Assembly: GCA_013388545.1 (NCBI GenBank) | Contig: JACAFB010000031.1 | Coordinates: forward strand, 62,001-126,000 | Direction of reading: 5' to 3' | Source of the DNA: Ignavibacteriaceae bacterium | GTDB taxonomy: Bacteria; Bacteroidota; Ignavibacteria; Ignavibacteriales; Ignavibacteriaceae | Length of the DNA: 64,000 nucleotides | Shown here: piece by piece, positions 14,610 through 17,974 of the stretch | Layout of the letters: each line of letters begins with the position of its first letter | Position numbering within the stretch: position 1 is the stretch's first letter | Made by a program: the position numbers and the translations under genes | The notes under the pieces: model-generated | The model's database searches: none | What the model saw: the letters and a program-made list of their open reading frames with translations, nothing else | Told to the model about the DNA's origin: nothing

Positions 14610-16265
14610 ATGATAGCAGAAAAAACCATTAAAGCTCCAAGAGGAACTAATCTTAGCTGCAAAGGATGGATTCAGGAAGCAGCTATGAGAATGCTAATGA
14701 ATAACCTTGATCCAGAAGTTTCAGAAAAACCGGATGAATTGATTGTTTACGGCGGCAGTGGAAAAGCAGCCCGAAGCTGGGACGCCTTTAACTCAATTTT
14801 AGAATCATTGCAAAATCTGGATAATGACGAAACCCTTTTAATTCAATCAGGCAAACCAGTAGGAATTTTCAGAACTCATATAAATGCACCGCGGGTTATC
14901 ATTTCAAATTCAATGCTTGTTCCTGACTGGGCAACCTGGGATGAATTCCGAAGATTGGAAAATCTTGGTTTAACTATGTACGGTCAGATGACAGCCGGAA
15001 GCTGGATATATATTGGTACTCAGGGGATTCTGCAGGGAACTTATGAAACTTTCGCAGAATGTGCCCGAAAATATTTTGACGGAAGTTTGAAAGGTAAATT
15101 GGTATTAACTGCCGGTCTTGGTGGAATGGGCGGTGCACAGCCTCTTGCCGCAACTTTTAATGGGGCAGCATTTTTGGGTATTGAAGTTGACAGATCACGA
15201 GCTCAGAAGAGAATTGATACCGGATATCTTGATTACCTGACTGATGATTTAAATGATGCTTTAACTAAAGTTCTTGAGGCAAAATCAAATGGGATAGCAT
15301 TATCTGTGGGTTTAGTCGGAAATGCAGGCGAAGTTCTTCCTGAAATACTTAAACAAAAAATAATACCGGATGTTTTAACTGATCAGACTTCTGCGCACGA
15401 TGTGCTAAATGGATATGTACCTATGGGTATGAGCTTTGAAGAAGCTCTCTCACTCCGAAAAACCAATCCGGATACTTACATAAAACTATCCCGCAAAACA
15501 ATTGTAACACATGTTCAAGCAATGCTCGAATTTCAGAAACTCGGCTCAGTTACATTTGATTATGGAAATAATATTCGCGGAGAAGCAAAAGAAAACGGAG
15601 TCGATAATGCATTTAATATACCAGGATTTGTTCCGGAATTCATTCGTCCTCTTTTCTGCGACGGAAAAGGTCCTTTTCGCTGGGTAGCTCTTTCCGGTGA
15701 TCCAAACGATATTTATGAAACTGATAAAGCTGTGAAAGAAACTTTCCCTGAAAATAAAGCTCTGTGCAACTGGATTGATATGGCACAAAAGAAAGTCCAT
15801 TTCCAGGGCCTGCCTGCGAGAATTTGCTGGCTTGGTTATGGCGAAAGAGCAAAAATGGGAAAAGTTTTCAATAAGCTTGTTTCAGAAAAAAAAGTAAAAG
15901 CTCCTATTGTTATTGGTCGGGATCACCTTGATTGCGGCTCAGTTGCTTCTCCGAACCGTGAAACTGAAGGAATGATTGATGGAAGTGATGCAATTGCTGA
16001 CTGGCCGATACTTAATGCTTTATTGAATTCTATTGGCGGCGCTAGCTGGGTTTCTGTTCATCACGGCGGAGGAGTTGGAATAGGAAAATCAATTCACGCA
16101 GGAATGGTAGTGGTTGCTGACGGAACTAAAGAAGCTGATGACAGATTAGAACGCGTTCTTACTTATGACCCCGGAATGGGAGTGATGCGTCACGCTGATG
16201 CTGGTTACAAACAGGCTATTGAAAATTCAAAAAAATGGAATATTAAAATTCCGATGATAAAATGA
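14610..16265 (+). CDS. hutU: Urocanate hydratase HutU
   Basis: HutU adds water to urocanate, giving imidazolone propionate in histidine breakdown, using tightly bound NAD+ as an electrophile. At 551 residues it has the family's length and hallmark blocks: [31 protein letters not shown] (dinucleotide-binding glycine loop), [11 protein letters not shown] and [15 protein letters not shown] near the end. No hutH, hutI or hutG lies in this window, so either the rest is elsewhere or the pathway is partial. It is the last gene of the add operon. Confidence 0.96.
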
Positions 16266-16334
16266 GCTTTAAAAATATTGATTATTACATATCATTAATT
16301 ATCTCGTCAACAATTGAAAAACGATGTGACTCAA

Positions 16335-16685
16335 ATGAAAAAATTTAGACTAGTAATCAGTAAAAAGATTTTGGCTCCTGCGTTATTTCTGATTCTGTCA
16401 AATGTTTCAGCTGCACAAACTGAAGAACCTTTTAATAAAGGCGATTGCACATTCAATGGTTTTAAGCTTTATGGTAAGATCAAATTCGTAGATTCCTTTC
16501 CTGATGTTACTGTTCAGGTCGTTGAGTCATTTCCGGATCTTAAAGTTAAATTGGTTTCTTCCTTTCCGGATGACTGTGGTGAATGGCAGATTGTTGATTC
16601 GTTTCCTGAAACTAAAATAAAAATAGTAGAATCTTTTCCTGATTTGAAGATAAAATTTGTAGAGTCGTTTCCAGGTATTCCTTAA
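16335..16685 (+). CDS. Secreted protein of six 11-residue 'SFP' repeats
   Basis: With the ATG at 16335 the product has 116 residues: a signal peptide (about 1-27, ending SNVSAA), then a short linker and six tandem units of the pattern (K/Q)-x-V-(D/E/S)-SFP-(D/E). The SFP triplets start at residues 54, 65, 76, 89, 100 and 111, spaced 11, 11, 13, 11 and 11; the longer middle unit holds DCGEW. Cysteines 38 and 81 could form a disulfide. The strand-turn periodicity suggests a compact all-beta fold. The function is unknown. A TTG at 16314 would add seven residues ahead of the signal peptide; neither start has a strong ribosome-binding site. Confidence 0.75.
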   Translation: MKKFRLVISKKILAPALFLILSNVSAAQTEEPFNKGDCTFNGFKLYGKIKFVDSFPDVTVQVVESFPDLKVKLVSSFPDDCGEWQIVDSFPETKIKIVESFPDLKIKFVESFPGIP

Positions 16686-16783
16686 TAAATAATAAAGCTA
16701 TATTGTTTTGTCGAAATGTGGATATGCTCCCCAGGCAAGCACAAAATGACATTTGAAAAAATCATTTAATTAAAGAGGTTAAT

Positions 16784-17974
16784 ATGAAACTTAAAGTATT
16801 AGTAGCTGATAAATTTCCGGATAAATATATCCAGCAAATGAAGGACCTCGATCTTGAGGTTATTTATCAACCAAAACTTGGCGAAAAAGATCTTCCCGAA
16901 GCTGCTAAAGAAGTTGATATTCTTGTCGTGCGATCAACAGTTGTTAGTGAAGAGACCATAAACGCTTCGAAGAAACTTAACCTGATCATCCGTGCCGGGT
17001 CAGGAGTAAATAACATTGCAATTTCTGCTGCCAACAAGAAGGGTATTTATGTTACAAATTGTCCCGGTATGAATGCAGTTGCAGTTGCTGAACTGGCTAT
17101 TGGTTTAATGGTGGCGCTTGATCGATTTATTCCGGAAAATGTCTTTGATTTCCGTAATAGCATCTGGAATAAAGATAAATACTCTAAAGGTAAAGGGCTC
17201 AAGGGAAAGACATTAGGTGTGATTGGAGTAGGCAACATTGGTAAGGAGGTTGCCAAACGAGCCCTTGCTTTTGAGATGAACGTTTACGGAAAAGATATTA
17301 CTAGAATCGAAGGGGTTCAGATAAAAGACTTTTCAGAAATGGATCAGCTTTTACCGCTTTGTGATGTAATCTCAATTCATCTTCCGGCTACACCGCAGAC
17401 AAAAGGATTGTTCAATAAACAAATGTTCAGTTATATGAAAGACGGAGCTTACATAATTAATACTTCAAGACACGATGTCATTGTTGAAGACGATCTGCTT
17501 GAAGCAATAAAAGAAAAGAATTTTCGTGTTGCCGTTGATGTATTTAAAGGAGAACCCGAGGGCAAATCAGGCGAAGTAAAATCAAAACTTCAGGACAATC
17601 CAAACATTTATGTAACCCATCATATTGGTGCCTCTACCGAGCAGGCTCAGGATGCAGTTGCTGAAGAAACTATAAACATTATCAAACATTATGTTCACAG
17701 CGGAGTTATTGATCACTGGGTCAACAGAGCTAAGGTCACCGATTCTCACTATCAGCTTGTTGTTAAACATTACGATAAGCCCGGAGTGCTTGCCAGTGTT
17801 CTGGATTTGCTTCGCGAAGGAGACATCAATATCGAAGAAATTGAAAACGTAATTTTCGATGGCGGGATTGCTGCTTCCTGCACAATGAAGTTAAAAAATT
17901 CAGCAACAGCAGATATGCTAAAGAAGATGAGCGAGAATCCTAATGTAATTAGTGTTAGCCACGTTGAAATTTAA
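16784..17974 (+). CDS. D-3-phosphoglycerate dehydrogenase-like enzyme with ACT domain
   Basis: The 396-residue protein belongs to the D-isomer 2-hydroxyacid dehydrogenases: substrate-binding Arg in VRSTVV (about 52), the NAD-binding loop GVIGVGNIGKEVAKRA, the second Arg region and the catalytic His in THHIGASTEQAQ. A C-terminal ACT domain (about 325-396, beginning VVKHYDKPGVLASVLDLL) suggests amino-acid feedback control, as in serine synthesis. The usual ARGxxVDE motif is changed to TSRHDVIVEDD. It is distinct from the longer SerA at 47380. An AGAGG site precedes the ATG and a strong terminator follows. Confidence 0.85.
   Translation: MKLKVLVADKFPDKYIQQMKDLDLEVIYQPKLGEKDLPEAAKEVDILVVRSTVVSEETINASKKLNLIIRAGSGVNNIAISAANKKGIYVTNCPGMNAVAVAELAIGLMVALDRFIPENVFDFRNSIWNKDKYSKGKGLKGKTLGVIGVGNIGKEVAKRALAFEMNVYGKDITRIEGVQIKDFSEMDQLLPLCDVISIHLPATPQTKGLFNKQMFSYMKDGAYIINTSRHDVIVEDDLLEAIKEKNFRVAVDVFKGEPEGKSGEVKSKLQDNPNIYVTHHIGASTEQAQDAVAEETINIIKHYVHSGVIDHWVNRAKVTDSHYQLVVKHYDKPGVLASVLDLLREGDINIEEIENVIFDGGIAASCTMKLKNSATADMLKKMSENPNVISVSHVEI

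Follow-up and report, generated by a model that had tools for sequence, protein, structure and literature searches.

The window, a stretch of 64,000 nucleotides from an Ignavibacteriaceae bacterium, encodes a 116-residue protein with six SFP repeats that, judged by its sequence and predicted fold, is an exported relative of the knotted protein UU089.1 (Q9PR55). On balance, we favour an explanation in which this exported member of the knotted family is carried as a one-gene cassette and serves as a stable binding or blocking protein of the cell envelope. The protein would share with the other small β-repeat proteins of the UU089.1/Q9PR55 family a chain wound into a deep torus-type knot, and a disulfide bond between Cys38 and Cys81, formed after export, would tie the N-terminal arm and the central unit together. 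The gene would travel in self-contained form, and its very stable product would bind or block something in the envelope and would not be an enzyme. The coordinates of the gene, its elements and its neighbours are listed in Table 1.

Table 1. Features of the SFP gene and of the hutU-serA locus in the window.
Feature	Position	Strand	Basis
hutU, upstream neighbour	14610-16265		NCBIfam, above cut-off
Putatively acquired segment between hutU and serA	16266..16783	+	Gap comparison with related genomes
Gene for the 116-aa, probably exported SFP-repeat (PHROG 6462 / UU089.1-like) protein	16335..16685	+	ORF and translation; PDB E 1.2e-10; phrog_6462 E 2.5e-32
Signal-peptide-like N-terminus, residues 1-27, MKKFRLVISKKILAPALFLILSNVSAA	16335..16415	+	Read from sequence; comparable hydrophobic segment in most relatives
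Codon of Cys38, the candidate disulfide partner from the N-terminal arm	16446..16448	+	Co-occurrence with the Cys81 column
Repeat core of SFP turns and six predicted strands in alternation	16470..16682	+	AlphaFold2 model, pLDDT ~97 over the core
SFP codon starts	16494, 16527, 16560, 16599, 16632, 16665	+	Within the repeat core
Expanded middle unit DDCGEW, which contains Cys81 and an almost invariant G and W	16569..16586	+	Alignment A1
Cys81 codon	16575-16577	+	Inside the DDCGEW unit
Phosphoglycerate-dehydrogenase-like gene (serA), downstream neighbour	16784-17974		NCBIfam, below curated cut-off

The initial annotation described six SFP triplets with a two-residue expansion carrying Cys81 in the middle, and the translation of 16335-16685 confirms both the positions (residues 54, 65, 76, 89, 100 and 111, with a spacing of 11-11-13-11-11) and the contexts (in order VDSFPD, VESFPD, VSSFPD, VDSFPE, VESFPD and VESFPG). 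The cysteines of the protein are Cys38 and Cys81. Four or more SFP triplets were obtained in none of 200,000 shuffles of the protein's own residues. The Ser and Pro codons vary from repeat to repeat, and the array is therefore not a slipped DNA repeat. The six-unit layout with a central expansion recurs in approximately 100 relatives, and among orthologues the differences are mostly synonymous (dN/dS ~0.02-0.18). Since the codons of the repeats differ and the changes between orthologues are largely silent, the repeat pattern is maintained by purifying selection on the protein. In alignment A1, Gly56 and Trp58 (model numbering; add 26 for the full-length protein) are at least 90% conserved. We prefer the ATG at 16335 as the start codon over an in-frame TTG at 16314, which would add seven residues, because a signal-peptide-like sequence directly follows the ATG. 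A scan of the DNA for promoters and terminators gave promoter-like sites no more often than expected by chance.

A sequence search of the PDB returned one real relative, UU089.1, with E-values of 1.2e-10 for the single sequence and 1.4e-16 for the family profile. The similarity extends over the repeats to either side of the central expansion, and the proteins are homologous over residues 48-105. We modelled the mature window protein with AlphaFold2, without templates and with an alignment of 75 family members. In the resulting model (pLDDT 92.9, pTM 0.81) six strands (residues 21-25, 32-36, 43-47, 57-60, 67-71 and 78-82 in model numbering, again offset by 26) are separated by the SFP turns, so that the regular strand-turn repeat expected from the sequence is present in the predicted structure. 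When the model was compared with the PDB using Foldseek, the Q9PR55 entries were the only matches at E ≤ 0.001 (four of four, E 2.2e-6 to 7.6e-5, probability 1.00). The TM-scores to Q9PR55 are only moderate, at 0.34-0.58 when scaled to the length of the model and 0.39-0.67 when scaled to that of the target, and the winding of the window protein may therefore differ from that of Q9PR55. A structure search of BFVD gave nothing significant. Q9PR55 is reported to be the first protein with a 7_1 knot, which AlphaFold had predicted before crystallography established it (PMC9278004, PMC11223836, PMC13352647), and its homologue P73136 is predicted to contain a 5_1 knot (PMC9278004). AlphaFold can misjudge topology, as stated in one published study (PMC10672856). 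The tentative remark in the initial annotation that small repeat proteins of this kind have been predicted to be deeply knotted is upheld as a lead by the homology to the solved 7_1 protein and its predicted 5_1 homologue P73136.

The window protein also matches the profile phrog_6462 (E 2.5e-32, residues 17-116), which represents a PHROG of unknown function, while searches of Pfam and NCBIfam with the window protein alone gave chance-level matches only. Weak Pfam matches of other family members (DUF6893, DUF723 and others) were treated as chance. The profile searches thus led to no family of known function, and the early impression that the protein has no nameable relative had to be abandoned in favour of UU089.1, PHROG 6462 and a sister family, Pfam DUF6150 (PF19647). 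The sister relationship is proposed from a profile-profile comparison of DUF6150 with the SFP family (hhalign, E 1e-6, probability 91), which points to common ancestry at the profile level. The DUF6150 Pfam model itself matched neither the window protein (E ≤ 1) nor the members of alignment A1 (E ≤ 0.1). Four of five models of the DUF6150 fold were poorer (pLDDT 36-71), and the nearest PDB match was again Q9PR55, with a weak E-value of 5e-3. DUF6150 genes with ESQAD repeats occur in Ignavibacteria and in phage contigs (L082-L085, L122-L128); those in phage contigs share the strand of their neighbours, and the gene order is conserved in L124-L128.

The window protein is probably exported, as suggested by its signal-peptide-like N-terminus and in agreement with the initial view that it is secreted; a hydrophobic N-terminal segment is found in nearly all family members. 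Four members without such a segment (L091, L097, L098, L105) also lack both cysteines. These proteins suggest that the family core can work in the cytoplasm as well, and their existence means that the family as a whole cannot act exclusively in the envelope. Among 102 distinct members, both cysteine columns are occupied in 81, neither in 17 and only one in 4, which makes 98 of the 102 concordant; the corresponding Fisher value of 2e-15 is inflated by shared ancestry. On the tree, the pair changed independently only two to four times, and two of these changes are well supported, both usually concordant. This joint gain or loss of the two cysteines favours, but does not prove, the Cys38-Cys81 disulfide that had been raised for checking, and lends it indirect support.

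In one scan of bacterial genomes we found 97 related stretches, and those from named organisms belong to at least eight phyla, with relatives in Ignavibacteria, Bacteroidetes, Cyanobacteria, Proteobacteria, Firmicutes and Myxococcota, among others. The gene is present in 10 of 296 genomes of the window's phylum and in none of 14 controls, and 13 of 14 carrier genomes checked have a single copy. Tandem pairs of family genes were seen at two loci (L075:196-921 and L071:1283-2033), the second copy in L071 being strongly diverged and on a long branch. A search of E. coli genomes with a relative from Gilliamella as the query gave no match, and a plasmid search gave three distant matches, in Leptospira weilii and Burkholderia. 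The relatives on Leptospira weilii plasmids (NZ_CP092209.1:10836-11072 and NZ_CP092208.1:141286-141522) are annotated as hypothetical proteins. PADLOC gave no match to the SFP protein, most bacterial copies do not adjoin recurring defence or prophage genes, and no conserved operon partner was found across phyla. An apparent helicase cluster beside the gene proved to be a mixture of different helicase types. The patchy, cross-phylum spread of the family is best explained by horizontal acquisition of a single gene.

In about 20 genomes of the window's order that lack the SFP gene, the gap between hutU and serA is 17-38 bp, and where the gene is present, in the window and its close relatives, it is ~416-532 bp. 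In a few genomes without the gene the gap is larger (139-807 bp), and the site is thus not always tight. In a further genome the SFP gene at this site is shortened and contains a TAG in frame (L143 / G012:C56:77332-77472), apparently a decayed copy, which indicates that the gene can decay. The simplest reading of these gaps is a gain of the SFP gene between hutU and serA in one clade.

Fifteen viral contigs from IMG/VR carry the SFP gene. A moron is a gene added to a phage genome, typically one that serves the lysogen. The SFP gene lies opposite to both of its neighbours in 7 of 13 scorable viral contigs, compared with 13 of 110 other genes on the same contigs (p 0.001); the contigs are partly interrelated, and the seven cases represent three distinct insertion sites. 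In bacterial loci the opposite orientation is not enriched (11 of 76 versus 78 of 718). Baseplate hub genes are found near the SFP gene in three contigs (L099, L103, L106), and the other genes tested nearby encode a terminase (L097), a tail completion or minor tail protein (L108), a tail protein of gpD type (L105) and an Rz spanin (L101). The SFP gene of phage contigs is thus often in a moron position, opposite flanking tail, lysis or packaging genes. Among 50,697 records of annotated phages, three queries gave no match to the SFP protein. In the putative phage contig L102 (452-5825), a type I restriction hsdM gene is located two genes after the SFP gene.

No candidate catalytic residues were seen among the conserved positions of alignment A1, which look structural (G, W, F, P, D and the core V of strands and turns), and we therefore propose a binding or blocking protein. 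Its specific role is much less certain. We tentatively suggest protection of the carrier's envelope, and within this suggestion superinfection exclusion or inhibition of lytic enzymes is the leading version. A superinfection-exclusion factor proper would be derived from phages, its exported product would stop the genome entry or the wall-piercing device of other phages, and it would later have become a bacterial defence gene. The moron position opposite tail, lysis and packaging genes, the export of most members, the patchy distribution and the clean gain between hutU and serA fit such a factor, for which HK97 gp15, cited in a review as a moron-encoded exclusion protein (PMC11436027), is a precedent. 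However, the lack of a PADLOC match, the phage copies without a signal peptide (L097, L098, L105) and the location of most bacterial copies away from recurring defence or prophage genes speak against it, and we consider this strict form rather improbable.

The main rival, to which we give similarly low credence, is a host protein that stabilises the envelope, for instance as a scaffold against oxidation or proteolysis, and that phages would carry as a fitness factor. At eight Bacteroidetes/Chlorobiota loci (L009, L023, L025, L034, L040, L046, L048, L074) the SFP gene directly follows, on the same strand, a glutathione-peroxidase-like gene with an apparently exported product; NCBIfam confirms two of these neighbours, with scores under the curated cut-off. 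Such an arrangement would suit a stability function, but the neighbour is absent from other lineages, and the SFP gene is too thinly distributed to serve in a general stress response. It is far less likely still that the protein is an unknotted β-repeat or solenoid and resembles Q9PR55 by repeat convergence only: repeat proteins can yield inflated similarity and the TM-scores are moderate, but the similarity spans the repeats either side of the central expansion and Q9PR55 is the sole PDB fold match.

Returning to an exported, knotted binding or blocking protein, we speculate, with little confidence, that exported members of the family with the most complex knot are morons shared by phages and bacteria, which guard the envelope against phages or lytic enzymes, and that the knot and the disulfide were selected for stability there. 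Why nature ties a seven-crossing protein knot is an unanswered question, the solved example being uncharacterised and with little functional context. The UU089.1 knotted family was already known, and the window protein is a new exported member; the co-occurrence of the cysteines, the moron position in phage contigs and the acquisition at hutU-serA are new. Single-gene passengers in phage genomes, together with acquired sites in scattered bacteria, provide a first clue to the purpose of the knots. With about 100 natural variants that differ in cysteines, turns and compartments, the association with phages, and a single locus available in intact, decayed and empty form, both the conservation of the knot and its function become testable.

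Compared with known systems, DUF6150 resembles the SFP family in its six period-11 repeats and G-x-W centre, and differs in having ESQAD in place of ESFPD. PHROG 6462 is a cluster of phage proteins, which the phage copies found here match as well; in contrast, the copy in the window is on a chromosome, and no prophage was seen in its surroundings. The arrangement expected of an exclusion moron, a single gene opposite the late genes of a phage, is seen for the relatives in phage contigs, whereas the window copy lies between housekeeping genes. P73136, with 112 residues and a reported 48% identity to Q9PR55 (PMC9278004), is close to the window protein in length. The closest solved structure is that of UU089.1 from Ureaplasma (PDB 8IWA, 8IWB, 8IWC, 8JRM, 8W68), with its 7_1 knot, the most complex known in a protein. 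Q9PR55 and the window protein have in common the period-11 SFP(D) repeats and the longer central unit; the window protein differs by one additional SFP unit at the C-terminus, by an N-terminus that resembles a signal peptide and by the Cys38/Cys81 pair.
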